Assembly: GCF_021389955.1 (NCBI RefSeq)
Contig: NZ_CP089980.1
Coordinates: forward strand, 3,467,001-3,531,000
Direction: 5' to 3'
Source of the DNA: Fulvivirga maritima
GTDB taxonomy: Bacteria > Bacteroidota > Bacteroidia > Cytophagales > Cyclobacteriaceae
Length of the DNA: 64,000 nucleotides
The translations under genes and the position numbers were made by a program. The notes under the pieces are model-generated. The model had not been told where the DNA came from and did not search any database. It saw nothing but the letters and a program-made list of their open reading frames with translations. Within the stretch, counting starts at the first letter, position 1. Each line of letters opens with the position of its first letter. This document shows, piece by piece, positions 37,587 to 63,400 of the stretch.

Positions 37587-40500
37587 ATGAAAAATAACAC
37601 CTTAATTCAGGTTCTTAAAAAGCGCCGGAAGCAAGAGTGTATTGGTATACACTTTATAGAAAGTAGTACAGATGAAAGTTTCTTATCATACGCAGAGTTG
37701 TATCAAAAAGCAATGTTGGCCTTAGGTTTTATTCAAAGGTTAGGCGTGCATCGTGGAGATGAATTAGTTTTTAATGTAGATGACAATAGAACCTTTATTA
37801 CAGCTTTTTGGGCTTGTTTGTTTGGAGGGATAATACCTGTTCCAATAACATTAGGACAGAATGATGATCATAAGAAGAAGTTGTTTAATATATGGGGGAA
37901 ACTCAATAACCCTTATGTTTTAGTCTCGACACCTACTTTAAATCGATTAGAAAAATACGCAATACAAAGCGGTTTGCAAGCTGTTTTTGAAGAAATGAGT
38001 CTGAAACAGGTGAATGCCGAGTATGTTGTTCAGAGTAATGAAATGGGAAAGGTATATGAGTCAAGCGAAGATGATATTGCTTTTATACAATTTTCATCAG
38101 GTTCAACAGGAGATCCCAAAGGCGTGGTTTTGACTCATAAAAACTTAATTACCAATGTAGCGGCTATTAGCCAAGCAGCAGGGTATTCTAATGATGACTC
38201 TATGATAAGTTGGATGCCTTTAACTCATGATATGGGGTTGATTGGCTTTCATATAAATCCTTTGTTTTCAGGGATGAATCAATATCTTATGCCTACAAAT
38301 TTGTTTGTCAGAAGGCCTTCATTGTGGTTTGATAAGGTTTCTTTGCATAAAATAACGGTGTTGTGTTCACCTAATTTTGGGTACCGCTATCTTTTAAAGC
38401 ATTATAGTTTTGAGCAGGCCAAAGATTGGGAGCTATCAAGTGTAAGGCTGATCTATAATGGGGCTGAGCCTATTTCTGTATACTTATGTTATGAATTCAT
38501 AGAAGAAATGTCGAATTATGGGCTTGACAGGAGGGCATTATGTCCGGTTTATGGATTGGCGGAAGCGAGTTTGGCTGTTTCTATCTCAGATCTTAATGAT
38601 TTTGTAAAATGCTATAATATTGATAGAGAAAGTTTGAAATTTGGAGATGAAGTCAGGCCTGTGGCAGATGACGAAGAGGGAATCTCATTAGTGAATGTTG
38701 GTAGGTCAATAAATGATTGTGATTTAAGAATTACTGATGATAATAGTACGGCGGTTTCGGATGGGGTTATAGGACATGTTCAAATTAAGGGAGATAATGT
38801 TACCTTGGGGTACTATAATGATTATAAGGCTACCGTTAGGGCGAAAGTTGAAGGTGGGTGGTTGAAAACTGGAGATTTAGGCTTTATAAAAGATGGTTGC
38901 CTTTATATCACAGGTAGAAGTAAGGATATAATTTTTGTAAACGGACAAAATTTTTATCCTCATGATATTGAGCGATTTGCTGAACAGGTTGAAGGAGTAG
39001 AGTTGAATAAAATTGTAGTTTCAGGTTTTTTTAATTCACAAACTCAAAAGGAGGAAGTGGTCACTTTCGTTTTCCATAGAGGATCTTTGGATAAATTTGT
39101 GCCTGTACTCACTGAACTAAAATCACATATTTATAATGCAATCGGATTTGATTTGGGTTTAATAATCCCTGTAAAGGATATACCGAGGACCACTAGTGGT
39201 AAGTTACAGAGGTATAAGCTTGTGATGCAATATATAAGGGGTGATTTTTCGGAAATCATAAATCAGTTAAATGAATTGCTTGTATCGTGCGAGGTGGAGA
39301 AATCGAATTCTGCTTACACAGAATTCGAAAAAAAATTGATAGATATTTGTAAGGAAGTATTATCCGTGGACAGTATTGATGGAAATAAAAGTTTTATTGA
39401 ACTAGGGGGCAATTCATTAAAAGCAGCAGAGTTTGGAATGATTCTTAATCAAGAATTTAATATAGATCTGCCAATCAATACCTTGTACGATTATCCAAGC
39501 ATTGATGCATTAGTTAAATCTAATTTTAATTTTAGCAAGAAAGAATTTTTGCCAATTCCCCAATTTCCGTCGCAAAGCGTATATAAGTTGTCAAGTGCTC
39601 AAGAAAGGTTGTTTTACGCCTGGCATTTTGACAAGCATTCAGTTGCTTATAATGTGCCGATAGCATTTAATATCAAGGGGAAGTTTGATGAAATTAAATT
39701 AAGAAATTGCTTCCAGAAAATTATTAATTCTAATGATGCTTTAAGAATGACCTTTAGCTTATTAGATAATAATCCGATATTTCATATAAGCAAGAACATG
39801 TATCTGGACATAAAGGAGCATACATGTGAGGTAAATGAAGTGTCGAAAAAATTGAAGGAACTGGTAGTGCCTTTCGATTTAGAAACAGGGCCGCTTTTTA
39901 GGGTTTCAATATTATATGTTACTCAGCATGAGCCAGTATTGTTGTTAGATTTTCATCATATTATTGCGGATGGCATATCAATATATAAATTCATTGAAGA
40001 GTTGGTGCTGATTTATGAGGAAAAATCCCTCAATGAAAGTAAGATTGGTTATAAAGATTATGTTCTATGGGAATCTCAATATTTGTCTTCTGAGGAAATG
40101 GAACTAGATAGAGCCTACTGGCTAGATGAATATTTGGATGATATTCCTATTCTCGATTTGCCTACTGATCGAGGTCGCCCAAAAATATTCAGTAATATAG
40201 GAGCCAAGCTTGAGTATGAGCTTACTCCAGATGTCAGTTCCCGGTTGAGGTACCTGGCTAGGCAGAGTAATTGTACACTTCATGTATTTCTATATACACT
40301 TTATACTTTAATTCTCTCAAAATATTCTGGACAAAATGAGCTTGTTGTTGGTGTGCCAGTGGCTGGAAGAAATCACCCTGATTTAAAGAATTTGCAAGGT
40401 ATGTTTGTTAATAATCTTGCGATTCGAACGCAAATACCCACTCATTGTTCATTTAAGGATTTTTTAAAAAAGCAAAAGGAGAATCTTTCCATGGGTGTGG

Positions 40501-43500
40501 ATCATAAAAATTATCCTTTTACATACCTTGTGAATGATTTGGCTATCAGTAGGGATTCAAGCAGAAATCCATTGTTTGATACCATGTTTGTCTTTCAGAA
40601 TATGGGTTTTCCAAATGCTGAAACTAGTGATTTTACGCTGACTAGGCATCCGTTTGATCCTGGTTTTTCGAAATTTGATATTTCAATGGAGGTGTTTGAT
40701 TATGAGCAGTCTATCAAATACTCAATTGAATACGCAAAATCAATCTTTGACAAAGAGACTATTTTGAGATTCAAAAACCATTTTGAAATTATTTTAAATA
40801 GGGTCTTAGATAATATTGAGATAGATATTTCGGAAATTTCAATGCTGTCCAAACCTGAGCATAATTGGTCGGTTTCAGTTTTTAACAGAACCGAGTCTGA
40901 TTATCCTGAAGGTAAATTAATTCATGAATTATTTGAAGATCAGGTAAAGCTAAATCCTGATAATGTTGCGTTAGAGTGCGATGACTTGCTTGTTTCATAT
41001 GCAGAATTGAATGAACGTGCTGATAGCTTGTCTCTTTCTTTAAGGAAGAATGGAGTTGAAGGAAATGAGGTTGTTGCAGTTTTATTGCCTCGTTCAATTG
41101 AGTTTGTTGTAGCTATTCTCGGGGTATTAAAAGCAGGTTGTTGCTATATACCATTAGATGATGAGATGCCAGAAGAGCGAATAAATTACATTTTAGGACA
41201 TAGTAAGTGCAGATTTGTAGTTACCTCGAAGATGCTCGAGTCCAAGTTGGTAAAATGGCAATTAGAGCAAACCGCTTCTAAACCATGTGTTATTGATATA
41301 CGCCGAGAGATAACAAGTGAGAATATTCAAGTTAGGGTTCCATCACTAAGTTCTAATTACTTAGCATATGTTATTTACACATCAGGAACCACCGGAGTGC
41401 CAAAGGGAGTGTCTATTGAGCATAAATCCCTGGTTAATTACATACATTGGGCCTCTAAAAGTTATCTTTCAGGCAAAGAATCATCTTTCGCCCTTTTTAC
41501 GCCAATGTCATTTGATCTTACAGTTACTTCAATCTTTACCCCATTAATAACAGGTAATAAAATCGTAATTTATGGTGAGGACAATCATTCTGTATTGGTC
41601 GATAGTGTTTTGCGAGACAATAAATCACAAGCAGTAAAGCTTACTCCCTCACATCTCCGGCTTTTATTAGAGAGTGATGTTACTGTCTTGGGTAATAGTG
41701 TCATAGAGCGATTAATAGTAGGAGGAGAAGCGTTAGAATATGATCTTGCAAAGAAAATTTTCATAAAGTTTGGAGAAAAAGTAAGCATCTTTAATGAATA
41801 CGGTCCCACTGAAGCTACGGTGGGTTGCATGATACATCTATTTGATTTGTCAGATGAGGAAATCAAAACAGTGCCAATTGGAGTACCAGCAGATAATATG
41901 CAGATTTACCTGTTAGATCAATTTAAGCAGCCAGTGCCAGTGGGGGTGAAAGGTGAAATATACATTGGAGGATTAGGCCTGGCACGTAATTATATGTTTA
42001 ACGATCAGCTAACGAAGAATAAGTTTATCGCTAATCCTTTTGTGGATGGTGCCAAAATGTTCAAAACCGGAGATATAGCAAGGCGATTGAAAAATGGGAC
42101 AATTGAATACATAGGTAGGCAAGACCATCAAGTAAAAATTAATGGTTATCGTATCGAATTACTAGAAATTGAGAATTGCTTGTCCAGTTTCCCAGGAGTA
42201 AATAAAGCAGTGGTACTTGTGAGGGCCAATGATAAACATAAAAAAATTATATACGCATATTTTACTGGCGATGAATCAGTAGACAATGTTTCTTTAAAAG
42301 CTTATGTAGTCAAGATATTACCTTATTATATGATTCCATCATACTATTTAAAAGTAGATAAAATTCCACTGACTAAGAATGGGAAAATTGATTATGAATC
42401 TTTACCTATTCCTTCTAAAAAGGTTAATGTTGATACTATCGAGGCTCCAAGAAATTATACTGAGACAATATTTCTTAAGGTATGGATGGAGGTATTTTCT
42501 AGTGACAGTATCTCTATAACTGACAATTTCTTTGAACTTGGAGGGGATTCAATTAAAGCGGTACAGATCTCTGCCAAATTGAGTACTGAAGGTGTTTTTG
42601 TAAGTGTTAGAGATATTCTTACTTATCATACCATAGAAGAGACTAGTTTACATGCTAAGTTCTCTAATGATAAAACCTATAATCAGGCACTTATTACTGG
42701 TGAAAAAAATCTTACACCTATTGAATCGTGGTTCTTCTCTAAAGAGTTTGCAATTCCTAATTATTACAATCAATCAGTAGTCTTGAAATTTCGAGATAAA
42801 ATAAATAGAGATGTATTAAAAAAGGCATTCAAAGAAGTTATTGCTCACCATGACGGTATGAGGTTGAATCTTTCTCATGATGAAAGAAAAATGGAATTTG
42901 ATAATTTGAGTTTTACTGATTGCTTTGATGTTTTAGATATTACAGTTGCATCCTTCGAGGAACAACAAATTAAGATTGAAGAGCTTAAGAGCCGATTTAA
43001 CTTATTTGAAGGGCTGTTGGTGAGTGCTGCTATCTTTAGGAATAGTAATGATTTAGATACTTTATTTATTACTTGCCATCATCTGGTTATGGACGGGGTT
43101 TCATGGAGGATTTTTCTTGCAGATTTACATTCTTGCTATCAAAGTATCAATAACTCTAAAAGCCATAAATTACCAGAAAAAACAGCTTCCTTAAAAGATT
43201 GGTATGAAGCTCTGAATTTATTTGCGAATTCAGATCAAATGAAAAAGTCAGAAGAATATTGGAGAGATTTGGGTTCTATAGATTTTTCAATACCACTCGA
43301 TAATGACATAGATGATTGGCGCTGTTTAAATTTAGCCAAGCATACTACTGTGCTTTCAGAAGATGATACCTCATTTTTATTAAAGGATGCTCATCATGCA
43401 TATAATACTGATGTTTCAATTCTTTTGAACGTTGCCTTGTTATTAAGTCTTAAGGAATGGACTAAATATGAATCGTTTATTATTGAACATGAGAATCATG

Positions 43501-44045
43501 GCCGTCATCTTGAAGGTATAGATGTATCTCGCACAGTTGGTTGGTTTACATCAATGTATCCTGTTAAATTTTCTATGAAAGACATGGAAATATCTCAGCA
43601 AATTCTATCAGTAAAAGATCAAATGAAGATAGTGCCTGATTATGGCATTGGTTATGGAATAATGAAGTATATGCAGGGAGGTAATTGTGAAGAGGCAATG
43701 TCTCATGTTAGGTTCAATTATCTAGGTCAATTTGACGGGGAGATGAATAATGAATTATTTTTTTACAGTCATGAACATCATGGTGCAGAGTCCGCTTTAG
43801 AAAATGCTATGACAGCCAAATTGGAGATGAATTTAATGATATACGGAGGTGAATTAATAGTTGATTTTCATTATAATCGTCTGGCTCATGAATCATCCAC
43901 CATAATTTGGTTTGGGGAAATATATATGCAAAATCTACGAAAAATTATTGAGCATATTAAGATACAAACGGACGTTCATTTTTCGCCATCTGATTTTGAG
44001 AATGCTAAATTAACCGTGTCAGATATTGATGCTCTATTTGAATGA
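37587..44045 (+). CDS. NRPS loading protein: FAAL-ACP-C-A(Asn)-PCP-E
   Basis: A 2152-residue initiating synthetase. Residues 1-590 are a fatty acyl-AMP ligase: SSGSTGDPKG at 170-179, SWMPLTHDMGLIG and NGAEPIS. An ACP follows with LGGNSLKA (attachment Ser 610). The condensation domain (about 665-1105) has HHIIADG from His 790 and should join the acyl chain to the amino acid. The adenylation domain (about 1120-1600; YTSGTTG at 1264-1270) has the ten-residue code DLTKIGEVGK read by eye, which is a known Asn code. The PCP is LGGDSIKA (Ser 1655). The last domain (about 1710-2150) is an epimerase: HHLVMDG at 1831, ENHGRH at 1969 and VRFNYLGQFD near 2041, so Asn is turned to D-Asn. All key residues are intact. 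Start is the ATG at 37587. The stop overlaps a small ORF by 17 nt. Confidence 0.93.
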   Translation: MKNNTLIQVLKKRRKQECIGIHFIESSTDESFLSYAELYQKAMLALGFIQRLGVHRGDELVFNVDDNRTFITAFWACLFGGIIPVPITLGQNDDHKKKLFNIWGKLNNPYVLVSTPTLNRLEKYAIQSGLQAVFEEMSLKQVNAEYVVQSNEMGKVYESSEDDIAFIQFSSGSTGDPKGVVLTHKNLITNVAAISQAAGYSNDDSMISWMPLTHDMGLIGFHINPLFSGMNQYLMPTNLFVRRPSLWFDKVSLHKITVLCSPNFGYRYLLKHYSFEQAKDWELSSVRLIYNGAEPISVYLCYEFIEEMSNYGLDRRALCPVYGLAEASLAVSISDLNDFVKCYNIDRESLKFGDEVRPVADDEEGISLVNVGRSINDCDLRITDDNSTAVSDGVIGHVQIKGDNVTLGYYNDYKATVRAKVEGGWLKTGDLGFIKDGCLYITGRSKDIIFVNGQNFYPHDIERFAEQVEGVELNKIVVSGFFNSQTQKEEVVTFVFHRGSLDKFVPVLTELKSHIYNAIGFDLGLIIPVKDIPRTTSGKLQRYKLVMQYIRGDFSEIINQLNELLVSCEVEKSNSAYTEFEKKLIDICKEVLSVDSIDGNKSFIELGGNSLKAAEFGMILNQEFNIDLPINTLYDYPSIDALVKSNFNFSKKEFLPIPQFPSQSVYKLSSAQERLFYAWHFDKHSVAYNVPIAFNIKGKFDEIKLRNCFQKIINSNDALRMTFSLLDNNPIFHISKNMYLDIKEHTCEVNEVSKKLKELVVPFDLETGPLFRVSILYVTQHEPVLLLDFHHIIADGISIYKFIEELVLIYEEKSLNESKIGYKDYVLWESQYLSSEEMELDRAYWLDEYLDDIPILDLPTDRGRPKIFSNIGAKLEYELTPDVSSRLRYLARQSNCTLHVFLYTLYTLILSKYSGQNELVVGVPVAGRNHPDLKNLQGMFVNNLAIRTQIPTHCSFKDFLKKQKENLSMGVDHKNYPFTYLVNDLAISRDSSRNPLFDTMFVFQNMGFPNAETSDFTLTRHPFDPGFSKFDISMEVFDYEQSIKYSIEYAKSIFDKETILRFKNHFEIILNRVLDNIEIDISEISMLSKPEHNWSVSVFNRTESDYPEGKLIHELFEDQVKLNPDNVALECDDLLVSYAELNERADSLSLSLRKNGVEGNEVVAVLLPRSIEFVVAILGVLKAGCCYIPLDDEMPEERINYILGHSKCRFVVTSKMLESKLVKWQLEQTASKPCVIDIRREITSENIQVRVPSLSSNYLAYVIYTSGTTGVPKGVSIEHKSLVNYIHWASKSYLSGKESSFALFTPMSFDLTVTSIFTPLITGNKIVIYGEDNHSVLVDSVLRDNKSQAVKLTPSHLRLLLESDVTVLGNSVIERLIVGGEALEYDLAKKIFIKFGEKVSIFNEYGPTEATVGCMIHLFDLSDEEIKTVPIGVPADNMQIYLLDQFKQPVPVGVKGEIYIGGLGLARNYMFNDQLTKNKFIANPFVDGAKMFKTGDIARRLKNGTIEYIGRQDHQVKINGYRIELLEIENCLSSFPGVNKAVVLVRANDKHKKIIYAYFTGDESVDNVSLKAYVVKILPYYMIPSYYLKVDKIPLTKNGKIDYESLPIPSKKVNVDTIEAPRNYTETIFLKVWMEVFSSDSISITDNFFELGGDSIKAVQISAKLSTEGVFVSVRDILTYHTIEETSLHAKFSNDKTYNQALITGEKNLTPIESWFFSKEFAIPNYYNQSVVLKFRDKINRDVLKKAFKEVIAHHDGMRLNLSHDERKMEFDNLSFTDCFDVLDITVASFEEQQIKIEELKSRFNLFEGLLVSAAIFRNSNDLDTLFITCHHLVMDGVSWRIFLADLHSCYQSINNSKSHKLPEKTASLKDWYEALNLFANSDQMKKSEEYWRDLGSIDFSIPLDNDIDDWRCLNLAKHTTVLSEDDTSFLLKDAHHAYNTDVSILLNVALLLSLKEWTKYESFIIEHENHGRHLEGIDVSRTVGWFTSMYPVKFSMKDMEISQQILSVKDQMKIVPDYGIGYGIMKYMQGGNCEEAMSHVRFNYLGQFDGEMNNELFFYSHEHHGAESALENAMTAKLEMNLMIYGGELIVDFHYNRLAHESSTIIWFGEIYMQNLRKIIEHIKIQTDVHFSPSDFENAKLTVSDIDALFE

Positions 44046-44295: not shown

Positions 44296-46665
44296 ATGTT
44301 AAAACATAATCTTCGTCTCATTCTTAGAAGCTTTATGCGTTTTAAGACGACTTTCTTAATTAACCTTATCGGGTTATCAGCTGGTCTTAGCAGTGTATTT
44401 TTTATTTATATGTGGGTAAGTGATGAAATGTCTTTTGATAAATTTCATAAAGACAGCAGAAATCTTTATCAAATAATGGAAAATCAGGAGAATTCTGATT
44501 TAATAAAGACAGTGGATAATACTCCTGACCCATTAGCACAGGCTTTGAAGGACGAAATGCCTGAAGTAGAATATTCTACGTTATCAACTCCTTTATCTTG
44601 GTTTCAAGACTTTACTATTTCTTCAAATGATGAGAATGGTGTAAAGGCCACTGGACAATTTGTAGGAAAAGATTATTTTAAAGTCTTTTCATATGAGCTT
44701 ATTTCTGGTAGTAGCGATAAGGTTTTGGCTGATCAAAATTCAATTATTATATCAAGATCCTTAGCTGAAAGTCTTTTTAATACTACAGAAGGTCTTATAG
44801 GTAAAAGAATTGATTGGCAGCTATTACAATTTAAGAAGGATGCTATTATTTCAGGTGTTTTTGAAGATGTACCAGAGCATTCATCGGAACAATTCGATTT
44901 TGTTCTATCGTTCGAATTATTTGCGAATATGTTTCATAGAGAGCCTAATTGGGGGAATAATGGACCAAACACTTTCGTGAGGGTTAAGGAGAATACTGAT
45001 ATTAAAGAATTTAATGCAAAGATTGATGACTTCATCAAGGGTAAGTATGAGGAGTCAAACGTAACTCTATTCGCAAGATTATATAAGGACAGATATTTGT
45101 ATGGTAAATATGAAAACGGGGCTCAAAGTGGAGGGAGAATTGAGTATGTGAAAATATTTTCTATCATAGCAATTTTTATTTTGTTTATAGCCTGTATTAA
45201 CTTTATGAATTTATCCACAGCAAAAGCTTCTAGGCGAATTAAGGAGGTGGGTGTGAAAAAGGCAATAGGTGTTAGTAGAGGTTCATTAGTGGTGCAATAT
45301 TTAGCAGAATCAGTATTAATGGCATTTATCTCTTTGGCTTTATCTCTTATTGTTATAGCGCTTTTTATGCCGAAATTCAATGAGATTACTGGTAAAGACT
45401 TATCTATGCACCTAGATAGCTCACTGATTTTATCTATGGTGGCAATTACATTATTTACAGGATTAATAGCTGGTAGCTATCCTGCTCTGTACTTGTCAGG
45501 TTTTAAGCCTGCTATAATTTTGAAAGGAAAATTCAAGAGCTCTATTAGTGAGCTTTGGGCCAGAAAGGGTTTAGTAGTTTTTCAATTTGCGCTTTCTGTG
45601 ATTTTTATAGTTTCCGTAGTGGTTATTTATAACCAAATGAAGTTTATACAATCAAAAAATATAGGCTATCAAAAGGATAATGTTATATTTTTTGAGAAAG
45701 AGGGAAAGGTTGCAGAAAGTCTTGAGAGCTTTCTAACCGAGGTGAAAAATATTCCTGGAGTGGTTAATGCATCTAGTAGAATGGGGAGTACTATGGGAAG
45801 TTTTATGACCACAGGTAGTGTGGAATGGCCTGGTAAAGATACTGAAAGTGAAATCTCATTTGAAAATGTTGGTGTCAACTATGATTTTCTTGAGACGCTC
45901 GGGATAGAGCTTAAGGATGGAAGAGGTTTTTCCAAAGATCACGGTTCTGATGTAGAAGCAATTGTATTTAACGAAGCGGCTATCAAAGTGATGGGAATTG
46001 AAAATCCTATTGGTCAAAAAATTAATTTGTGGGGGGATCAGAGAGAAATTATCGGCGTAGTCAAGGATTTTCACTTTGAGTCCTTACATGAACAGGTTAA
46101 ACCATTATTTTTCATTTTAGCTCCACAAAAAACTAGTGTTGTTCTAGTAAAACTGGATGGAAGTCATACGTCAGAAACTATTGAGGATATCAAGAATTTT
46201 TATTTGGAATTTGCAGGAACTCCAATAGATTTTCAGTTTCTAAATGTAGCATATGAAGCGCAATATGTTTCTGAACAAAGAGTGTCTTCATTATCTAGAT
46301 ATTTTGCTGCTTTGGCTATAATTATTTCTTGTTTAGGATTATTTGGTCTTGCAACTTTTACGGCTGAAAGAAGATTAAAAGAGATTGGCATAAGAAAAGC
46401 TCTCGGGGCTAATAATTTCACAATCATATATCTTTTGTCATTAGATTTTACAAAAATGGTGCTGGCATCTATAGTTCTTGCTATACCAATCAGTTACTTT
46501 ATTTCTCAGCAATGGCTTGATAACTTTGCTTTTAGTGTAAAACTTGAGGTATGGTATTTTGTGGGAGCGGGGGTTCTGACACTATTAATAGCATGGCTTA
46601 CTGTAAGTTTACAAACTATAAAAGCGGCTATGATTAGCCCTGTTAAATGTTTGAGAACAGAATAA
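44296..46665 (+). CDS. MacB/FtsX-type ABC transporter permease
   Basis: A 789-residue inner-membrane protein with two FtsX cores. One helix at about 18-41 precedes a MacB-type periplasmic domain (about 45-270). Three helices follow (about 285-400; FILFIACINFMNLSTAKASRRIKEVGVKKAIG), then another helix near 425-447, a second periplasmic domain (about 460-660), and three final helices (about 670-785; SRYFAALAIIISCLGLFGLATF, IKEIGIRKALGAN). The repeated KEVGVKKAIG / KEIGIRKALG signatures are typical coupling helices for an ATPase. The ATPase itself is not next to it, so it must be encoded elsewhere or lie downstream. Bacteroidota carry many such permeases, some linked to antimicrobial export or signalling. 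Its place between two NRPS genes, on the same strand, suggests export of or resistance to the cluster's product. Confidence 0.88.
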   Translation: MLKHNLRLILRSFMRFKTTFLINLIGLSAGLSSVFFIYMWVSDEMSFDKFHKDSRNLYQIMENQENSDLIKTVDNTPDPLAQALKDEMPEVEYSTLSTPLSWFQDFTISSNDENGVKATGQFVGKDYFKVFSYELISGSSDKVLADQNSIIISRSLAESLFNTTEGLIGKRIDWQLLQFKKDAIISGVFEDVPEHSSEQFDFVLSFELFANMFHREPNWGNNGPNTFVRVKENTDIKEFNAKIDDFIKGKYEESNVTLFARLYKDRYLYGKYENGAQSGGRIEYVKIFSIIAIFILFIACINFMNLSTAKASRRIKEVGVKKAIGVSRGSLVVQYLAESVLMAFISLALSLIVIALFMPKFNEITGKDLSMHLDSSLILSMVAITLFTGLIAGSYPALYLSGFKPAIILKGKFKSSISELWARKGLVVFQFALSVIFIVSVVVIYNQMKFIQSKNIGYQKDNVIFFEKEGKVAESLESFLTEVKNIPGVVNASSRMGSTMGSFMTTGSVEWPGKDTESEISFENVGVNYDFLETLGIELKDGRGFSKDHGSDVEAIVFNEAAIKVMGIENPIGQKINLWGDQREIIGVVKDFHFESLHEQVKPLFFILAPQKTSVVLVKLDGSHTSETIEDIKNFYLEFAGTPIDFQFLNVAYEAQYVSEQRVSSLSRYFAALAIIISCLGLFGLATFTAERRLKEIGIRKALGANNFTIIYLLSLDFTKMVLASIVLAIPISYFISQQWLDNFAFSVKLEVWYFVGAGVLTLLIAWLTVSLQTIKAAMISPVKCLRTE

Positions 46666-46720: not shown

Positions 46721-49700
46721 GTGAAAGACAAACTAGATAAGTCTAACGTATCACAAATATTGGAGTTGACCACGGTACAACGGGGTATGTTATTTCATTT
46801 TTTAAATGAAGCTGACAGTAATGTTTATAATGTTCAGATTTCGATTGATATAGATGGAAATTTGGATGTTAATCTTCTTAAAGAAGCATTTATACTAGTT
46901 CAAAAACAGAATGACGCGTTGAGGTCTGTTTTTAGATGGGAAAAACTGAGTAAACCTGTTCAAATAATTCTTAAGGATGTCTTAATTGATTTTACCTTTA
47001 AGGATATTTCTCAGGAAAATACTGAACTGGAAAGAGAGAAACTAGTTCAAGAAGTAATAAATGATGATCTGGGAATTAGATTTTCGTTAAAATCAACACC
47101 TTTTCGAATCCAGGTAATAAAGTTATCTGAACGAAAACATGTAATGGTAATTACCCACCATCATATTTTGTATGATGGTTGGAGTACCGGTATTTTGTTT
47201 GATGAATTGTTTTCATTTTACCGAAGTTTATCCGGAGGTCATCAAAAGTTAAGCGCAAAGGTTAGTTATTCTGATGTCGCTAATCAATTAAAGTCGGAAC
47301 TATCTGATAAAGCTAGACAATTTTGGAGTCAATATCTTGAAGGTTATAAGGTTACATCATTATTTTCTGCAGCAACTAATAATGAAAAGAGTTGTGAAAT
47401 AGAAAAAGTTGCGATCACTATTCCTAACGAACCTTTAAGTCATTATTCTTCAACTCATAGGGTTACTAAAGCCTCGGTAATTTATGCTGCGTATGCAATA
47501 TTTTTGCAAAAGTATCATGATGTTAATGATGTCACCTTCGGTACTACAGTTTCTAATAGAGATAATGAAATTAATGGTCATGATCAGATAATCGGAAATT
47601 TCATTAATACTTTACCAATAAGAATTAAGAATGCGGAAGAGAAAAGGTTGAATGAGCTAGTTAAGGATGTGAGTAAGCAGCTTATAGACAGGGCCCAATA
47701 CAATAACACATCTTATTTTGATATTAAAAAAATTCATAATGTAAAGCCTGATAGAGATCTGTTTGATTCGGTACTAATAATAGAAAATTACCCGCTGAAT
47801 ACAGATCAGATACATGGTAACCATGATTTAACATTGGGAATTCGATCTGTGTATGAGAACACAGGAATCCCCTTAGTGATTACAGTCTTCTTCAATGATT
47901 CTGTAGATATTGAATTGTCTTATCAAACATCTCAATTTACAAGAGACGAGGTTAATTTTATCTCCACAAAACTAGCTATGTTTATAGAGGCTATTATTGT
48001 GGGAGGTAACAGAGGGCTGAAGGAGTTAAGTTTGCTGTCAGAAAATGAAAAGAATGAGCTCTTAATCCACTTTAACGACACGCAGCTTATTTATAATAAA
48101 CAAAGTACAATTGTTGAACTTTTTGAAGAACAGGTTAAGGCTACACCTGATCAAATAGCTCTTGTTTTTGGAGAACAAAAACTCAGTTATAATGAACTTA
48201 ATGGCTTGGCTAATGGCTTAGCCTTGGATTTGCGAAACAAAGGAGTGAATCCAAATGATGTGGTAGCTCTATACACTAGTAGGTCTTTGGAACTATTTAT
48301 AGCGCAAATTGCTGTGCTTAAATCCGGTGGCAGTTATTTGCCTTTAGACCCTGAATTTCCCCAAGAACGCTTAGAGTTTATGATAGCTGATGCTGGAGTA
48401 TCTACCATTATATGTACACCGGATTTAGAAACTACAAGATTTAAAAATAATACAGAGATAGATCTAATTGTGGTTGACTCTGAAGAGATCTCTAGCATTG
48501 GTGAAAATTTAGACCTGGTTAATGTCAATGATGATTTGGCTTATGTTATTTACACTTCTGGATCTACAGGAAAGCCTAAAGGTGTAATGATCACGCACAA
48601 ATCAGTGCACAACTATATTGAGTCTTTATCAGCATGTGTGCCGTTCAATTTAGATACATGCATTATTTCTGTCACGACGTTTTCGTTCGACATTTTTGTC
48701 ACAGAGTCACTAGTGCCATTAGCAAAAGGATCTACCATAGTAATCGCTGATAGTGATGCTCAGAAAGATCCACATATGCTCTCCAAATTGATTACGCTAA
48801 ATGATGTTAACTTGATGCAGACAACACCATCTAGGTATAGGATGTTGGCAAATGATGAAGCAATTTTTAAAACAATAGGAAATCAGCTGCAAAATATATT
48901 GGTGGGCGGAGAGGCCTTCCCTCAAGATCTTTTGAAATTTTTACAAAATCATACTCAGTCTCAAATATTTAATGTATATGGCCCTACCGAAACTACTGTA
49001 TGGTCATCACTTATAAACCTAACAAAATCCGATGCTATTACCATAGGAAGGCCTATTGGAAATACCCAATTTTATGTTTTGAACAAAGATTTACAACTAC
49101 AGCCGAAAGGAGTGGTGGGTGAGCTTTATATTGGTGGTGATGGCTTAGCAAAAGGTTATTATAATAATGAAGAACTAACCCAAAAGACCTTTATAGACAA
49201 TCCTTTTAAACAAAACGAAAAACTTTACAAAACAGGGGATATGGTGAGGTGGTGTCCTGATGGCTTATTAGAATATGTGGGACGTAAAGATTTTCAGGTT
49301 AAAATAAGAGGTTATAGAATTGAATTAGGTGAGATTGAAGGGTGTTTATTAAACTATAGTAAAATAAAGCAGTGTGCTGTAGTAGTAAACGAAACCGATA
49401 ATAGGAAGCAGATAGTTGCATATTATGTAGGGGATGAAATGGAGAATTTAGATGAACTTAGAGCTTATCTGATAAAATCCCTTCCCTCATATATGGTCCC
49501 TGCATATTTTATCTCGCTTGACTCCTTACCAATGACACCTAATGGTAAATTAGACAAGGCTAGATTGCCATTGCCTGAAATTCAGCTGAGGGAGAGTCAT
49601 AAAGTTGCTTCAAATTGGGTCGAAAAAGAGCTCTTAAAAATCTGGAAACAGTTATTGGGGCATAATGAAATTAGTGTAGACCAGAACTTTTTTGATGTTG

Positions 49701-52700
49701 GAGGAGATTCCCTTCATCTTATTACAATGAGTTCAAGGATTAAGTCCATATTTGATGCAGATATTTCCGTAACAGATCTTTTTAAATTCACCACCATTAG
49801 CCAATTGGGTAAGGTCATTAATAAGGGTAAAGAGCCCATTGATCAAGATAAGTTGCAAGAGGTGTCTTCAACTTCAGATGCTTTATCAAAGTCTTGCGAT
49901 ATAGCCATTATAGGTATGGCCGGCAGGTTTCCTGAAGCTCAGGATATATATCAGTTTTGGGAAAACCTAAGAGCGGGTAAAGAGTCTATAACTAAGAAAA
50001 ATAAAAAGGAGGGTGATTCAAAAATTGATGCCAAGGGCCATTTGATTGACTATGACTTATTTGATGCATCGTTTTTTGACTACTTACCATCTGAGGCCTC
50101 AAAGATGGACCCTCAGATACGTATTTTTCATGAGTGTGCATGGGAGGCGTTAGAGCATGCCGGATATAATCCATTTAAATATAAAGGCAAGATAGGTCTT
50201 TATGGAGGTGCATCAATTAACCCTTATTTTAACCTTAATCTGGCAGGTTCGGATTCCGATGACTGGGTGGAAAAATGGGAGACAATGACCTATGCGGATA
50301 AAGACTTTCTGTGTCCCAGGGTTTCCTATAAGCTAAATTTAAAAGGCCCTAGTGTAAGTGTGAATACTGCATGTTCTACTTCATTGGTAGCTGTAGATAC
50401 TGCTTGTCAGGAATTGATTTCAAGTAAATGTAGTATGGCTTTAGCCGGGGGTGTTTCTATATCTTTACATGATAATGATGGTTACACTCATCAGCCAGGT
50501 ATGATCCTTTCAAATGATGGTAGCTGTAGAGCTTTTGATGAAAACTCTTCAGGTACTGTAGGTGGAAATGGTGTGGGTATTGTGGTTTTAAAAAGACTGG
50601 AAGATGCTCTGAAGGATGGTGATTCGATATATGCAGTTATTAAAGGCAGTGCTACCAATAACGATGGAAATGAAAAGATAGGTTTTACGGCTCCTAGTGT
50701 TGAAGGGCAGAGTTCCGCTATAAAGCAAGCAATTAGAAAATCTAATATTTCATCAGAGAGTATTTCATATGTGGAGGCTCATGGTACAGGTACAGTATTG
50801 GGAGATCCGATAGAAATTGCTGGATTGACTAAGGCTTTTAATACTAGCAAAAGGCAATATTGCGCAGTAGGGTCGGTAAAAACTAATATTGGACATTTAG
50901 ATGCAGCTGCGGGTATAGCTGGTTTAATAAAGGCGACCATGTCCTTATACTATAAAGAGCTAGTGCCTAGTCTTCATTATAATAATCCTAATCCAAATAT
51001 AGATTTTGCACATAGCCCATTCTATGTAAGTTCAGATCTCAAACAATGGGAGAAAAGTGAGTTTCCAAGACGTGCAGGCGTTAGTTCCTTTGGTATAGGA
51101 GGCACTAATGCTCATGTGATTTTGGAAGAACCACCTGAAGTTGAAGAATCTTCAACTTCTCGCGAATTTCATTTATTAAGCTTTTCAGCAAAAAGTGAAG
51201 AGTCTCTTAAAAATAATATATTTAAACTTTCAGATTACTTAAAGAGGAATCAGAATATATCACTTGCGGATGTAGCTTATACTCTTAACAAAGGCAGAGC
51301 TCATTTTCCTTTAAGAGTAAGTATTAGTGCGGAAGAAACATCTCAAATTTCAGAAATCCTTCGAGAGTTATCTTCAGATGTCTCAATGTTATTGAGTAGT
51401 AATAGGAAGGATGAGATAGTTTTCATGTTTTCAGGTCAAGGCTCTCAGTACCTTGGCATGTGTTCTGATTTATACACTAAGGAAGAGTATTTCAAAACTA
51501 CTGTTGATTTGTGCCTGAATATTGCCCATGAACTGTGTAGTAAAGATTTTGGCAAGGTACTATTTAATAAAGACACTGAAGAAGGAAATGCTTTAGTTAA
51601 TCAGACGGAATTTGCTCAGCCAGTGTTATTCATTATTGAGTATGCTTTAGCCAAGTTACTTATAAGGTGGGGTATTGTTCCATCTTCAATGATAGGGCAT
51701 AGTATTGGCGAAATTACGGCGGCTTGTGTCTCAGGAGTTTTTACCTTAAGAGATGCTTTGAAGTTAGTAATAAAAAGAGGGGAAATTATGCAAGCTGCAG
51801 ACCCTGGTGATATGTTGAGTATTTCTATAGGTCAAGAAGAGTTGATGCCACTAGTAGGTAATGCTGAAATTTCCATTGCTGCAATAAATAGTCCTTCTCA
51901 CTGTGTAGTCTCAGGAACATCAGAAGCCATTGAGAATTTTAAGGACCTAATTGAGCAGAAAGAATACAGTTGTAGAATAATACCTACCTCTCATGCATTC
52001 CATTCGTATATGATGGATGATATTCTAGAAAGTTTTAAAGCATCTTTGAAAGATATCAAGTTTCATCAACCACAAATTCCAGTGATTTCAAATTTAACTG
52101 GGGATATAGCAGATGAGGTACTACTCACTAATCCGGATTATTGGGTAAGACATATTAGGGAGACGGTGCACTTTTCTTCAGGTGTAATGAAGCTGATGGA
52201 GTCTGGTAAGAAGTTATTTGTAGAAGTGGGGCCAGGGAATGTGTTGAGCACCTTTACCCGCTCACATAATGACAGCGAAGGAAATCATACAGTAATTAAT
52301 CTGGTGAAACATCCAAGGAAAGTGGGGGATGATCAGCAATATCTGCTTGCTAAAGTAGGTAAGATTTGGGAGAATGGGTTTGATATAAATTGGGGCGCAT
52401 TCTATGGAACAGAAAAAAGAAGAAGAATATCACTTCCTGCATATTCTTTTGATAGGTCAAAATTCCCTGATCGGTTAAATCAGATTCCTCAAGAAAATGT
52501 TAGACCCGTACGCAGTAAGAATCTTAATGATTGGTTCTATATTCCTGGATGGAAAAGTACATATTTTAGATCCGAAGAGAAAAAACAAGCAGGTGTTAAT
52601 ATAATCTATGGAGATTATAACCATGTATACTCATCCATAGAAACCAGGTTGAAGTTGGAGTCAATTCCATTTGTGTCAGTAATAAAGGGAGAAGGGTATG

Positions 52701-55700
52701 CTAAGATTTCTGACCATCAATATATGGTTAACCCTGATCATAAGGATGATTTTTTGAAGCTGTTTAAGGATTTGAACGCCTTAAATTTCAAGTTTAACCA
52801 AATCCTTTATAATGGCACTTTAGATGATCCCGATCTTAATAATGAATACAATAATCATCATTATCTATTCTACAGCTTACTTCATTTTGTGAAAGTGGCT
52901 AAGAAAGGCGGAATTTTAAATAATATTAGGTTAGTACTTATTACAAATGATGTTTATAATGTTCTAGGTAATGAGACTGTAAATATTGCATCATCCGCTA
53001 TCTCAGCTTTAGCAAATGTATGTGCTCAGGAATATGGTTTAACGAAGTGTCATATTGACCTTTCGATGAAAAGTCTTGATGAGAACTATGATCAATTAGT
53101 AAACTTAATTACCAGTAACTGTATCTCTCCAACATTGGCCGTGAGAAATGGGCTGATATGGGAAAGAGATTTTCAACAGATAGATGTCAAATTAGATGCC
53201 TCACAGTTTAAACCCAATGGCATTTACCTTATTACAGGAGGAATGGGTAAATTGGGGTATATTCTGTCTGAATATTTAATAAAAAAATATGATGCCTCAG
53301 TAGTGCTGATAGGCCGAACTGCAAAACAGGAGGTAGCCGATAAGATAGCGCGATTAAATTCTGGGGCTAAAAAGGTCATTTACTGTCAGGCGGATGTTAC
53401 TAACGTAAAGGATCTTGAAAACGTGGTGTGTGAGACGAGTAACATATTTGGTGAAATCACTGGGGTGATTCATGCAGCTGGAACATTAAATGGTAGTAGT
53501 ATCGATATAATAGATAATTTATCTGATCAGGCATACATGCAGCAATTTCAAACTAAGCAAGGAGGATTGCATTCGATCCATCAGGTGTTTGGTGCAAGGA
53601 ATTTAGACTTTTGCCTGGCTATATCATCTATTTCTGCAATATTAGGAGGAGTTCGTTTGGGAGCTTATGCATCAGCTAATATGGCAATGGATCAATATCT
53701 ACTATCTCTAAAAAAGAGAGATTGGCAATCCTTGAATCTTGATGGATTATCATTTGATGATGCATCTGGTGAAGGGTTAAACACTGAAGAGTTAATAGAT
53801 GTAATAGAAGCGGTACTGACTCTTAAAAATGTACCTCAATTGACAGTTTCAGTTGGTGACTTGGATAAAAGGATCTCTGAGTGGCTAGTTAAAGACCTTA
53901 TAACATTAGAAAATAATGATGGAACTGATTCATCATTTGGCTATAATATTGAAGATGAACTTAGAAAATTATGGAAAGAGTATTTTGGAGTTGAGGAGAT
54001 AACAAGCCATGATGATTTTTTTGAATTAGGTGGGGATTCACTTAAAGTGATAACCATGATAGGTAGAATACACAAGAAATTTAAGGTGCAATTATCAATT
54101 GGAGAGTTTTTTCAAAATTCGGCGCTCAAGGATTTAAGCGATCTGATAGTTACATATTCTTCAAATAATAGCACCATTGACAACATAATTTCAATTGCTC
54201 CGGCTAAGCATAGTTATCAACTAAGCTCAGTGCAAAAGCGTTTATATTTCCTCCAAGATTTTGCCCCTAATTCGACTGCATACAATATGCCTCTTGCTTT
54301 AAGGTTGAAAGGTGAAATCGATAGAGAAAAATTAAAGATAGCATTCATACAATTAATAGAGCGCCATGAGCCATTGAGGACCAGCTTTGAAATTTTAGAT
54401 GATCAGCCTAGTCAGATTATCATGATGGATTTCGATTTTGATATTGAGTGTTTTGATACTTCTGATAAAGATGTAGAAACAATAATTTCTCGATTTATTA
54501 GACCATTTACATTAAAAGAAGCTCCTCAAATTCGAGTTGGTTTAATAGAAAAATCTAAATATGACCATATCATGGTTGTAGATATGCCTCATATAATTAC
54601 AGATGGAATTTCTAAAAGTGTTTTAATTCAGGATTTTATGTCTCTTTATAACAAGGAGCCACTCGAGGAATTAAGGATACACTATAAGGACTATGCAGAG
54701 TGGCAGCAAGACAGTAGTTATAAGGACGAGCTAATAGGTCAAGGTGATTTTTGGAGGCTTGAATTTGATGATGAGCTGGAGCCTTTGAATATACCTACCG
54801 ATTTTGAAAGACCACCTATTAAGAATTTTGAAGGAGCCATCAAAAAATTTGAATTGGATGAGACCACTACACTTGATTTGAAAGCCCTTGCTGAAGATAA
54901 TGACTCCACTTTATTCATAATATTATTATCATGTTATTACATCTTTCTTGGTAAGCTGAGTGGTGAAAATGATTTGGTAATAGGTACACCTGTATCAGGA
55001 AGGACAAGTTCAGAGTTGGAAAGAATGGTTGGAATGTTTATAAATACTCTTCCTTTAAGAAATACGATCCTAAGCACAGAAAAATTTAGTGATTTTTTAG
55101 CAAGAGTTAAAAATAGAACTATCGAATGCTTTGATAACCAGATATATCCCTTTGAGAATTTATTGGAGGACTTGGATTTAGATAGGGATTTGAGTAGAAA
55201 CCCATTATTTGATGTGTTTTTCTCCTATGAAAATTTTGAGCGCTCAAAGCTAAAAATCCCAGGCTTAGAAATTACACCATTCGATGATAATCATATAGTG
55301 TCCAAGTTTGATTTAACACTAACAGCTTTTGAGGAAAATCAGACATTATCACTTCATTTTGAATACTCGACTAAATTGTTCAACTCAACCACAATTGAAA
55401 AATTTGTTGATTATTATAAGTCAATTATCAAGGTGGTGCTTGGTGATAATAACATCAGGATATCTGACATTAGCTTGATTACTGATAGTGAAAAGGAAAC
55501 AATATTAAATGCATTTAATAATACAGCGGGAGTAATTGATGAAACTCTTACCATTTCAAATGCTTTTGAAGAAACCGTGGCCAATAATGGTGATGATGTA
55601 GCCTTGACATATAAAGGCAGAAATTTCACATTCAATGATTTTAATAGTAGAAGTAATCAGATTGCTCATGCTATTTTAGAATATCAACTGCCTTACGGAT

Positions 55701-58700
55701 CTAGGATTGGAATTCTACTTCCTCGGACCGAAAACCTGTTGATTAGCATAATGGGAGTTTTAAAGGCAGGCTGTGCATATGTTCCTATTGATCCTGATTT
55801 TCCTGAAGAGAGAGTGGATTACATAATTAAAGATAGTGATGTTTCTTTAATGCTGGTGGATAATAACGAGCAATTGATAATTGATAAAAAGAGTATAGAA
55901 TGTTTAAATGTTGCTTCAGAACATATTAAACTGCAGAAGATTCATAATCTTGGTATCCAGATCTCTTCATCAGAATTGGCATATATGATCTATACTTCTG
56001 GGTCTACAGGTAGGCCTAAAGGGGTGATGATTGAGCATTTAAATGTTCTCAATTTCATAGAGGGCATCACATCTATTATAGACTTTTCTGCACGATCAAG
56101 ATTTTTGTGTTTAACTACAGTGTCGTTTGATATTTTTGTTTTGGAGAGTATCTTACCACTAATTAAGGGGTATCAGGTGATTTTGGCTAGTAAGGATGAT
56201 CAAAAAGATCCAGATTCATTATGTAGAATTATAAAATCTACAGAACTCAATGTAATGCAGATTACCCCATCTCATTTAAAAATGCTGCTTTCATCAGCAG
56301 AAGTGGGAGAAGCGTTAAACTCTTTGGAAATAATCATGGTTGGGGGTGAAAGCTTTCCAGTATCTCTATTAAAGGTATTGCAATCGTATAAAAAGCTTAA
56401 AATATACAACATGTATGGGCCTACTGAAACAACCGTATGGTCCTCCGTCCAAGAACTAACGAAGGCCGCTAGCATAGATATTGGATTCCCGATTTTGAAT
56501 ACCTCAATGATAGTTATCGGTGATGATGGTCAACTACAGCCAATAGGTGTTCCAGGAGAACTTTACATAGGAGGACTAGGTGTGGGTAGGGGGTATTGGG
56601 GAAGAGAAGACCTTACCAGTGAAAAATATGTAATTAACCCCGCAGGAATTAAGGGAAGATTTTATAAAACGGGTGATCTCGTTAAGTGGCTTCCAAATGG
56701 AGCAATACAATATTTAGGTCGTATTGATAATCAGGTTAAAATTAGAGGCTATCGAATAGAGTTAGGTGAAATTGAACGAAATTTGTTGACATACGAAGAA
56801 ATTTCAGAAGTGGTTGTATTCGCTCATGGACCTAAAGAAGATAAACTCTTGGTGGCATATTATGTTTCTCCATATTTATTGGAGGCAAAAATTCTTAAAG
56901 ACCATTTATCTGTGCAATTGCCTAACTATATGATTCCTTCATATTTTATGCATCTAACGGATCTACCCCTTACGCCCAATGGCAAAATAGATAGAAAAGC
57001 CCTGCCTAAACCGGAGCTTACAAGTATAAGTGAATATATGGCTCCAACTTCTGAAATGGAACAGGTTGTAATAAGCTTATGGGCAGATGTTTTGAATATT
57101 AATATTGATTCAATTGGAATAACTGATAGCTTTTTTGATTTGGGTGGACACTCTTTGCTAGCAAGTATATTGTCAAATAAAATAAGTAAAGAACTTAGCC
57201 TTACTTTGCCCTTAAGGGAAGTTTTTAAGTTGCAGGATGTACGTAGCCAAGCTGATTACCTTAGTCTTCGAGAAAAGAAAAAATTTACCTCTATTAATAA
57301 ATCTGTAGAAAAAGCATACTATCCTGTATCTTCATCTCAAAAAAGATTATTCATTCTTAATCAATTAGATAAGCAGTCGGTAGCTTATAATATGCCTTAT
57401 ACGGTAAGGTTAAAGGGTAGATTAGAAAGGGATAAATTTGATCAAGCATTCTCCAAACTTGTGAAGCGACATGAAAGTTTGAGAACTACTTTTCATTTGA
57501 AAGATGATGAAGCTGTACAAAAAGTAGAGGATGATCATATATTTAAAGTTGCCTATTACGAATGCGAAGAACGTGATGTTAACCAAAAAATAGAAAAGCT
57601 TATTGCACCTTTTGACTTGGGAGTTTGGCCTTTATTGAGAGCCGTTGTGTACACCTTCAGACCAGATAGTCATATTTTAGTGGTGGATATGCATCATATT
57701 ATAACTGATGGTTTATCACAACAAATTTTGCTGAAGGACTTTATTAAGATATATAATCAAGAAAGCCTTCCACCTCTGCAATTAGATTACAAAGATTATT
57801 CGGAGTGGCAGCAGAGTTCTACTCAGAAAGATAAATTATTAATTCATCAAGATTACTGGAAAGCAGAGTTTGAAGGAGAAATACTGTCGTTAGAACTACC
57901 ATATGACTTTGCTCGTCCCGTAGCGAGGAGTAGTAATGGAGGGAGGTTAGATGCCGTTCTGGATAAAACATTAACATGTGAATTGAATAATCTGAGCAAG
58001 CGTGAAGGGGTATCTAAATTTATTTTACTGTTATGTATCTATTATGTGATGCTAAGTAAATTGAGTTCTCAGGAAGATATAGTTATTGGTACACCTGTAT
58101 CTGGAAGGGAGCATGCAGATTTAGATGCAGTAATAGGCCTTTTTGTTAATACCTTGCCACTCCGAAATTTCGTAAATGGTAATAAATCATTTAAGGATTT
58201 TGTGCTTGAAGTAAAAGAGAGATTCCTTTTAAGTCATGAACATCAAAGTTATCCTTATGAGTATTTAATAGATGATTTAAAAGCTGATAGAGTAGGAAAT
58301 AGAAATCCTCTTTTTGATGTGATGTTTGTTTTTCAGCAAGATAATGATCCGGATGTTGAACTTTCTGGTATTCAGATGACACCCTATAAGTGTGATTTCA
58401 AGGTTGCTAAATTTGACCTAACATTAATAGCTCAGGAAACCTCTGAAGGAGTTCAAATAAGTATTGAATATTCACGTGATCTTTTCCTACCTGAAACTAT
58501 TCAAAGATTTATCAATTATTATCATAGAATAGCAGCAACGGTGGTGGCAGATGTGCAGCAAACTCTTTCGGATATTCAAATTATATCCGATAATGAAAGA
58601 CGTGAGCTCATTAATGAATTCAATAATACCGAAGTACCTTATCCAAAGGGAGAAACTATTATAAGCCTATTTCAGAAACAAGTTGTAGACTATCCTAACC

Positions 58701-60453: not shown

Positions 60454-63400
60454 ATGAGTATAATCACCCAGCTAAGGAAGCTTAAGGTTAATATTTCTCT
60501 TATTGATGGTAAGTTGAAAGTTAATGCTCCACAAGGAGTGCTAACTAAACGGCTATTGCAAGAAATAAAGGAGAATAAATCACAGCTGATAAACTATTTG
60601 GAAGAAGTGGCTGGTAAAAGAAGCTTTGTGAACATTGAAAGAGCTGCAGATAAAAAATACTATCAATTATCATCAGCCCAACGGAGACTTTATTTTCTTT
60701 ATGAACTTGATCGTCTGTCTACAGTATACAATCTTCCACAGACAATTAAATTAAATGGCTTTTTAGATAGGGATAAACTTCAAAATACGTTTGAGATACT
60801 TATTGATAGACACGAAAGTTTGAGGACCTCTTTTGTATTAATAGAAAATGAACCACTACAAAAAATTAATGATCATACAGATTTTAAAATAGAATATCTA
60901 CAATGTACTGATGATCAAGCTAGATCCATGATGCACAATGTGATCAGGCCTTTTGAGTTAGATAAGGCTCCATTGTTCAGAGCAGCTATTATAAGTACTT
61001 CATTAGAGGAACACTGGCTTATAGTGGATATGCATCATATTATTACAGATGGAGTTTCTCAAGCCGTGTTAATTGAAGACTTCATGAAGATATACACTGG
61101 TGCTAGCTTGTCTGCTCTCAATTTGACATATAAAGATTATGCTGAATGGCAAAATGGTTCTGGAAATCATGAGGAAATTATTAAACAGAAATCATTTTGG
61201 AAAGAACAATTTTCTAGTCTTCCGGCAGTCTTAAATCTGCCATGCGATCATAAACGGCCTGTAACTAGAAACTTTGAAGGAGCAACTATAAATTTTGACT
61301 TAAGTGCTGCCGAAGTCATTTTATTGAAAAAGCTTGCAGATGAAGAAGGAGCTACACTGTTCATGGTAGTGCTATCAATATTCAATGTATTTTTAAGTAA
61401 ATTATGCAGTCAGAACGATATTGTGGTGGGAACTACTGCCTCAGGTAGAGTGCATGCTGATTTGGAGCCGTTGATAGGAATGTTTGTTAATACGCTGGCC
61501 TTAAGAAATTATACTGATCCATCTAAGACATTTAAGGATTTTCTTCGTTCTGTAAAAGAGACAGCGCAACATTGCTTCACCAATCAATCTTACCAATTTG
61601 AGGAATTGATAGATGATTTAAAGGTATCCAGAGATACAAGTAGAAATCCTCTATTCGATGTAGTTTTAGTATACCAAAATTTTAATCAATCTACCTTAGA
61701 AATACCTAATTTATCACTCTCTCCACAAGGTGTGGAAAGTGATACAGCAAAATTTGATCTAACACTGTCGGTTACTGAGTCTAAGGAAGATCTCTTTTTC
61801 AGCTTTGAATATTCTACATACCTATTCGAAACGAAAACCATTGAGAGGTTTATTTCATATTTTAAGAGGGTAGTATCTGTAATTTCTGAAAATGTAGATA
61901 GTATTCTTGGAAAGATTGAGATTTTAGATGAGAATGAAAAACATCGCCTCCTTGAAGAGTTTAATCATGCAGAGCTCACTTATGATAAGAGAGAAAGTGT
62001 TATATCCATGTTTGAAAAACAGGTTAGGAATAGTCCTGATAGTATAGCGGTTCAGTATGGAGAACAAAGTATTTCCTACAAGGAACTAAATAATAAAGCT
62101 AATGTTATAGTCCATCATTTATCAAATATTTGCAGGCGCGATGGTGAAAAACGTATAGCACTTCTGTTTCGGCCCACCATTGATTTAATTGCCTCTATGC
62201 TGGCTATAGTTAAAGTGGGATGTGCATATATAAACTTGTCGCCCGAGGAGTCAGTTGAAAGAAATAAGTTGAAATTCTTTGACAGTAAGGCTCAAGTTCT
62301 TTTATATCAGCAAGATTTGAGTTCAGAACATGAAACATTTTTGGCATCAATTCCTGCTGAGAGAAGTTTCTCTATTGATAAAGATAATGAGGAGAATCCT
62401 CCTGAGTTTAAAGGAGAAGCGAAGCCTGATGATCCAATTTATATCATTTATACGTCAGGAACTACTGGTAGGCCTAAAGGAGTGGAGGTTTTGAATAAAG
62501 GAATTTTGAACATGGTTCACAACTTTCATAAGCAATTTGGCGTTTACCCCGGAACTGTTCTTAGTCAGGTGGCGAATCTTCTATTTGATGCTTCCGCCTT
62601 TGAAATCTGGCCGGCGTTAGCCTTGGGAGGAACATTGAAGATAGCTCCTGCAGAAGTTCGGCTGGACCCCTCTTTAATGAAGCACTGGTTAGTGAATAAT
62701 AAAGTGGAAATCACTTATCAGCCAACAGCTATTGCTGAATACCTACTAAGGGATGAGTGGACAGCTGTGCAAAATTTACGTGTTCTAAATATTGCAGGAG
62801 ATAGACTTAAATACAAAGAAGACAAAAATCTCCCTTTTGAAGTATTCAATCTATATGGGCCTACAGAAGACTCTATATGGACAACTTTATGTAAGTGGCC
62901 ATATAAGAGTGAGAACTATAGTATAGGTAAGCCTATTGCAAATAAAAAAATCAGAATTTTAGGCTCTAATGATGAATTGCTTCCTATTGGTGTTTCAGGT
63001 GAGATTTGTGTGTCTGGTATTGGCGTGGCTAAAGGATATTTAAATAGCGTAGAATTAAACGATAGAAAATTTGTTCCTGACCCATTTGATGACCAATTGA
63101 GGATGTATAGAACAGGAGATTTAGGGAAATGGTTAAATGATGGACATTTAGAGTTTTTAGGAAGAATTGATAGGCAGGTGAAAATTAGAGGTTATAGAAT
63201 AGAGCTTGATGAGATAGAGAAACAATTGTCTCAATATGATGGGATAAAAGAATGCGCAGTCATAGATGCAGACAGGGCAGATCAAAAATATATATTGGCT
63301 TATTATGTAGCTGAAGGTGATATAGTATCAAAAATGCTTAGAGATTATTTAGCTCAGTTACTTCCTGAATACATGATTCCTGCATATTTCATTCATATGG

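Follow-up and report, generated by a model that had tools for sequence, protein, structure and literature searches.

A probable N-acyl-D-asparagine prodrug pathway with a cis-fused fatty acyl-AMP ligase start in Fulvivirga

Start protein and peptidase-exporter fusion

We analyzed a 64,000-nucleotide stretch of the Fulvivirga maritima genome (hereafter the window; G000:C1:3467001-3531000, on a single contig of 6.39 Mb) that carries part of a nonribosomal peptide synthetase (NRPS) and polyketide synthase (PKS) cluster. The cluster extends beyond the window end (loci L014, L015 and L069), and we describe here its two defining genes, one encoding a start protein and the other a fused peptidase-exporter. 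The start protein had been described in a sequence-only reading as a fatty acyl-AMP ligase (FAAL), acyl carrier (ACP), condensation (C), adenylation (A), peptidyl carrier (PCP) and epimerization (E) domain in that order, with the A-domain code DLTKIGEVGK. Both the order and the code were recovered by Pfam, PDB search and residue reading:

37587..44045, + strand: open reading frame (ORF) of the FAAL-ACP-C-A-PCP-E start protein, 2152 aa
37587..39260, + strand: FAAL domain, residues 1-558 (PDB search, Pfam, NCBIfam)
39333..39518, + strand: acyl carrier domain, residues 583-644, carrier Ser 610 (Pfam, residue reading)
39573..40859, + strand: condensation domain, residues 663-1091 (Pfam)
40932..42386, + strand: adenylation domain, residues 1116-1600, code DLTKIGEVGK (Pfam, residue reading)
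42459..42656, + strand: peptidyl carrier domain, carrier Ser 1655, borders approximate (Pfam, residue reading)
42684..44021, + strand: epimerization domain, HH 1831-1832, D1836 and E1969, borders approximate (Pfam, residue reading)

Pfam recognized two AMP-binding, two PP-binding and two Condensation-fold stretches in this protein. For residues 1-558, the top PDB scores belonged to FAALs and acyl-AMP loading domains, including McyG (283 bits) and 3pbk, named 'Fatty Acyl-Adenylate Ligase' (245 bits), while the highest score outside the named or known FAALs came from a benzoate-CoA ligase (95 bits). The NCBIfam fatty acyl-AMP ligase model PRK09192 scored 414 bits on the start protein, below its own cut-off of 600. 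The PDB ranking points to a FAAL rather than a CoA ligase as the first domain. The code was read at residues 1310, 1311, 1314, 1351, 1377, 1379, 1404, 1412, 1413 and 1600, and we take it to specify Asn. Both carrier serines (S610 and S1655) and the C-domain His are kept, as are the HHxxxDG motif and Glu of the E domain, in agreement with the earlier description of an intact epimerase. Judged by sequence, and with the code taken to specify Asn, the C-A(Asn)-PCP-E module is predicted to produce an acyl-D-Asn start. Full-length homologues occur in six other genomes of the genus (one split into two frames), which places the module well beyond chance.

The sequence-only reading had proposed a search 30-60 kb downstream for a ClbP-like S12 peptidase and a multidrug and toxic compound extrusion (MATE) exporter. 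The peptidase is present, with its D-Asn residues kept, but in a layout other than the expected ClbP plus MATE pair, as its exporter is an ATP-binding cassette (ABC) half-transporter fused to it, like that of ZmaM and PamJ:

G000:C1:3566980-3570057 (L015:16681-19758), same strand as the last NRPS: S12 peptidase-ABC transporter fusion, 1025 aa, ~36 kb beyond the window end

A gap of 44 bases separates the fusion gene from the last NRPS gene, and the region between the FAAL start codon and the fusion end measures 65.5 kb. Its product consists of an S12 peptidase, then transmembrane helices and then a half-transporter of the cyclic-peptide-export type, with Pfam matches to Beta-lactamase (S12; residues 45-356) and ABC_tran (833-964). 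The NCBIfam cyclic peptide export model TIGR01194 scored 345 bits (cut-off 286.2), placing the half-transporter C-terminal to the peptidase as in ZmaM-type fusions. Full-length ClbP (7mdc), including its transmembrane part, aligned to residues 51-478 with an E value of 5e-51. A simple hydropathy scan gave hydrophobic segments after the peptidase at 387-417, 427-453 and 457-489, and the peptidase is predicted to be membrane-anchored by these C-terminal helices. The Ser/Lys/Tyr triad is S96, K99 and Y190 (ClbP 95, 98 and 186), and the D-Asn residue set is T192, N260, N330, W457 and W463 (ClbP 188, 257, 331, 460 and 466). According to PMC9889268, D-Asn prodrug peptidases keep N331 strictly and have Ser or Thr at 188 and His or Asn at 257; in their transmembrane part, the strictly conserved positions are W460 and W466. 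The Pfam-scanned proteins of the cluster included no MATE family match, and we rejected such an exporter as a required partner, the fusion having its own ABC part.

The window genome has 13 S12 matches. One is the fusion, ten others were compared (that at L009 is incomplete), and two lay outside the comparison, namely L006, which has an internal stop and no ORF, and L013, which lies beside L009. The D-Asn residue set was found in none of the ten other S12 ORFs compared. Besides the fusion, the cluster encodes a second S12 protein (L014:17394-18860); it looks exported, with a hydrophobic start (residues 4-22), no transmembrane tail and 70% identity to a counterpart in Fulvivirga marina, and its alignment shows Asn at 331, Glu at 92 and Gly at 188.

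Distribution across the genus and beyond

We compared 15 genomes of the genus of F. marina, including the window genome (G000) and F. marina itself (G775). FAAL-C-A-PCP-E starts were found in seven genomes (10 proteins, one split in two frames), and all ten share the code DLTKIGEVGK. Fusions were found in eight genomes (13 proteins, up to four in one genome) with 43-95% mutual identity, and all 13 have the catalytic residues and the D-Asn residue set. By pattern, the Walker A motif is present in 13/13 and an LSxGQ-type motif in 12/13, the exception being G780. A fusion occurs in 7/7 genomes with a start versus 1/8 without one, for which a one-sided Fisher test calculated by hand gives 8/6435 = 0.0012, a value to be read with the species being related and so not independent. 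Start and fusion share a contig for six of the 13 fusions (G000, F. marina C55 and C39, G773 and two in G781); in the single-contig genome G781, two starts and two fusions form same-strand pairs, within 69 kb and 67 kb, compared to 65 kb in G000. Ten of the 13 fusions lie directly 3' of an NRPS gene, the G772 fusion follows an NRPS fragment after two small genes, and the C39 and G773 fusions adjoin the start gene itself.

Two profile searches, of the order and of the phylum, covered genome samples, with at most three candidates scored per listed genome. At E 1e-60, a profile of the S12 and transmembrane parts matched 2/390 sampled order genomes, both within the genus, and this profile matched 1/395 sampled phylum genomes, the window's own; a single-sequence query likewise matched 1/395 phylum genomes. 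Besides G000, the order search with the whole fusion returned matches to its ABC part only, as did all 11 records from a plasmid collection. One sequence at a contig end (G096:C640:22535-23080; L025, L027) matched the ABC part at 64%; G096 belongs to another family of the same order, and its genome contamination is 7%.

In the open-licence literature searched, titles and abstract openings named neither a Bacteroidota acyl-D-Asn prodrug pathway nor a FAAL-started one, and the search for a FAAL term together with an acyl-D-Asn or D-Asn term found none. 'FAAL' is absent from the didemnin paper, and two paenilamicin papers contain none of the ligase terms tried. PMC12565237 describes a 570-kb NRPS/PKS island in F. 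kasyanovii without the word prodrug, and PMC9889268 assigns most D-Asn prodrug peptidases to Firmicutes and some to Proteobacteria and Actinobacteria. As far as searched, the phylum and the cis-FAAL start appear to be new, as do the Gln-92 members described below.

Neighbouring genes and related clusters

Three further genes follow the start gene within the window:

44296..46665, + strand: MacB/FtsX-type permease, 789 aa (Pfam; same-place copy in F. marina, 80% identical)
46721..60436, + strand: NRPS-PKS, 4571 aa, C-A-PCP-KS-AT-KR-PCP-C-A-PCP-C-A-PCP, with ketosynthase (KS), acyltransferase (AT) and ketoreductase (KR) domains (Pfam)
60454..63810, + strand: TubC_N-C-A-PCP protein, 1118 aa (Pfam)

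The first C domain of the 4571-aa protein has the motifs VQRGMLFH and HHILYDGWS, presumably those of the C-domain type that accepts a D-residue. Downstream of the window lie more NRPS/PKS genes, a cupin-like protein (Cupin_8 score below its cut-off), an asparagine synthase, the lone S12 protein and a flavin oxidoreductase. The cluster ends with the last NRPS (bearing a thioesterase domain), the S12-ABC fusion, a TauD-family oxygenase, an Asp/Glu racemase and a thioesterase, past which there are proteins that look by eye like transposases. Upstream of the start gene, a 292-aa protein (36424-37302) lacks a Pfam match, sits in the same place in F. marina (74% identical) and is possibly a regulator.

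A contig scan of genomes returned one related locus, from F. marina 29W222 (64% in the best segment). Its C55 cluster has the same gene order as the window cluster, with each gene in one unbroken frame, and identities of 57% for the start protein, 80% for the permease, 84 and 86% for the asparagine synthase pieces and 63% for the fusion. For another F. marina start, on C64, the partner is probably a fusion on the small contig C19: the C19 fusion is 94% identical to fusion G781_1733k, whose cluster has a start 83% identical to that of C64. Close to where its last two NRPS ORFs adjoin, the C64 scaffold contains an ambiguous base.

Several other features of F. marina were observed. On C39 (32 kb; L053, L061), a FAAL-C-A(Asn)-PCP-E gene and a fusion are accompanied by a carbamoyltransferase and many small enzymes, with no other NRPS recognized on the contig; its product is perhaps a non-peptide capped by acyl-D-Asn. 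On C63, a C-A-PCP protein with an Asn-type code (L063:2489-6760) has its A domain interrupted by a QueC-like (PP-loop) stretch. Proteins similar in size to the 44296-46665 permease are encoded near the Asn-code gene on C64, C39 and C63. Small proteins that look NusG-like by eye, possibly antiterminators, lie upstream of giant NRPS runs (C64:208233-208739 and C63:816241-816771).

Proposed pathway and alternative explanations

Taken together, the domains, active-site residues, code, synteny and co-occurrence make it highly probable that the cluster is a Bacteroidota N-acyl-D-asparagine prodrug pathway working like the ZmaM systems, and very likely that the cell makes a bioactive compound in masked form. 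From this sequence-level basis we infer which substrate is used, that the precursor is inactive, that it is exported and cut, and that the product is active. The FAAL would activate a fatty acid and load the fused ACP, after which the first NRPS module would add and epimerize Asn. Some 14 further NRPS/PKS modules, counted from domain tables, would extend the chain, and a thioesterase would release an inactive precursor capped by acyl-D-Asn. The ABC part of the fusion would then move this precursor across the inner membrane, where the periplasmic S12 domain would cut after D-Asn to give the active product and N-acyl-D-Asn.

Several observations weigh against this interpretation. At the position of ClbP E92, the fusion has Gln (Q93) in place of the usual Glu, as do six of the 13 genus fusions, the other seven having Glu. 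PMC9889268 describes E92 as highly but not strictly conserved in known members, and reports that ClbP E92Q keeps wild-type-like activity on D-Asn while gaining activity on D-Asp. Flp gave slightly better scores with the S12 domain (phmmer, 192 bits; profile, 265 bits) than ClbP did (177 and 253 bits), although Flp has Leu in the N331 column of the printed alignment. Four fusions (G775_C19, G667, G772 and G778) are on a different contig from the one that carries their genome's start. For three of the 13 (G780, G775_C63 and G781_6330k) no acyl-D-Asn start was identified, where the G781 C63-type cluster was examined at its two ends only and motif reading misses some A domains, so that a start may be overlooked. 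Upstream of G775_C63 and G781_6330k lies an Asn-code protein without FAAL and without E domain (Pfam on the F. marina copy, with which that of G781 shares 97% identity). In the assembly, six of the genes that separate the start from the fusion are split or shortened. The pieces of the last NRPS are only 39-51% identical to that of F. marina, so the products of the two clusters probably differ.

The sequence-only reading had left open whether the system makes a prodrug or a plain D-Asn lipopeptide. A lipopeptide would retain its acyl-D-Asn, leaving the fusion to act in export only, its hydrolase domain being unrelated or idle, and the slight lead of Flp over ClbP would suit such a role. FAAL-first NRPSs commonly make lipopeptides, and two of them in G096, outside the genus, have another code, so that Asn does not follow from a FAAL start by itself. 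We nevertheless regard this explanation as quite improbable: the catalytic and D-Asn residues are kept in every genus fusion, whereas the set is absent from all the other S12 ORFs compared, and fusions occur in 7/7 genomes with a start versus 1/8 without one. The position of the fusion directly after the last NRPS, together with its D-Asn-recognition residues, supports the prodrug reading. Even less probable, and rejected, is that the lone S12 protein removes the cap and the fusion has another role; its hydrophobic start, its 70% conservation in F. marina and its Asn 331 and Glu 92 would fit, but it has Gly at 188 and lacks both the C-terminal transmembrane part and W460/W466.

A rather unlikely alternative, compatible with a prodrug pathway by origin, is that the window copy has decayed and its frame breaks leave start and fusion without a working line. 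The six interrupted genes (two NRPS/PKS genes, the cupin-like gene, the asparagine synthase, an A-PCP-C gene and the last NRPS) span ~38 kb downstream of the window (L014:350-17350 and L015:728-16636), and each is single and unbroken in F. marina, although one border within the last NRPS may be a genuine boundary between genes. Against decay, start and fusion are both unbroken, and interruptions also affect genes elsewhere in the assembly: one of the 13 S12 matches has an internal stop, two neighbouring S12 matches resemble fragments of a single gene, and 2/50 ABC ATPase matches cover clearly less of their model. This pattern is consistent with indel noise without proving it.

Extending the prodrug interpretation to the genus, we tentatively suggest that Fulvivirga has several parallel acyl-D-Asn prodrug pathways with their own peptidase-exporters and mostly cis-FAAL starts, in which the Glu-92 and Gln-92 classes differ in removal of a D-Asp cap. 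The natural Gln-92 members would offer a test in wild proteins of the D-Asn/D-Asp rule drawn from the ClbP mutant. With as many as four fusions per genome in this Bacteroidota branch, the NRPS/PKS clusters of the genus probably make potent, self-masked compounds, and inhibition or deletion of the peptidase should accumulate stable precursors.

Comparison with known systems

The closest likeness is to the ZmaM, PamJ and EdeA type (zwittermicin, paenilamicin and edeine), in which an S12 peptidase is fused to an ABC half-transporter in a similar domain order; ZmaM is likened here by described layout and residues, not by identity. Both have ~1,000-1,100 aa and the D-Asn residue set, and in both the gene sits in an NRPS/PKS cluster starting with an acyl-D-Asn module. 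Unlike this type, the window system is found in Bacteroidota, has a cis-fused FAAL and belongs to a family with Gln at E92 in 6/13 members. PamJ is described as type II with nine transmembrane helices and an ABC domain (PMC4234257), and acyl-D-Asn mimics inhibit ZmaM, an acyl-D-Asn boronate having been published as an inhibitor of ClbP and ZmaM (PMC9889270). The ClbP, XcnG and AmiB type (S12 with three transmembrane helices and a separate exporter) shares the peptidase fold, W460/W466 and the D-Asn residues, but the exporter of the window system is fused to its peptidase. FAAL-initiated lipopeptide synthetases share the FAAL-ACP-C-A start, to which the window cluster adds an E domain, an Asn-type code and a candidate cap peptidase.

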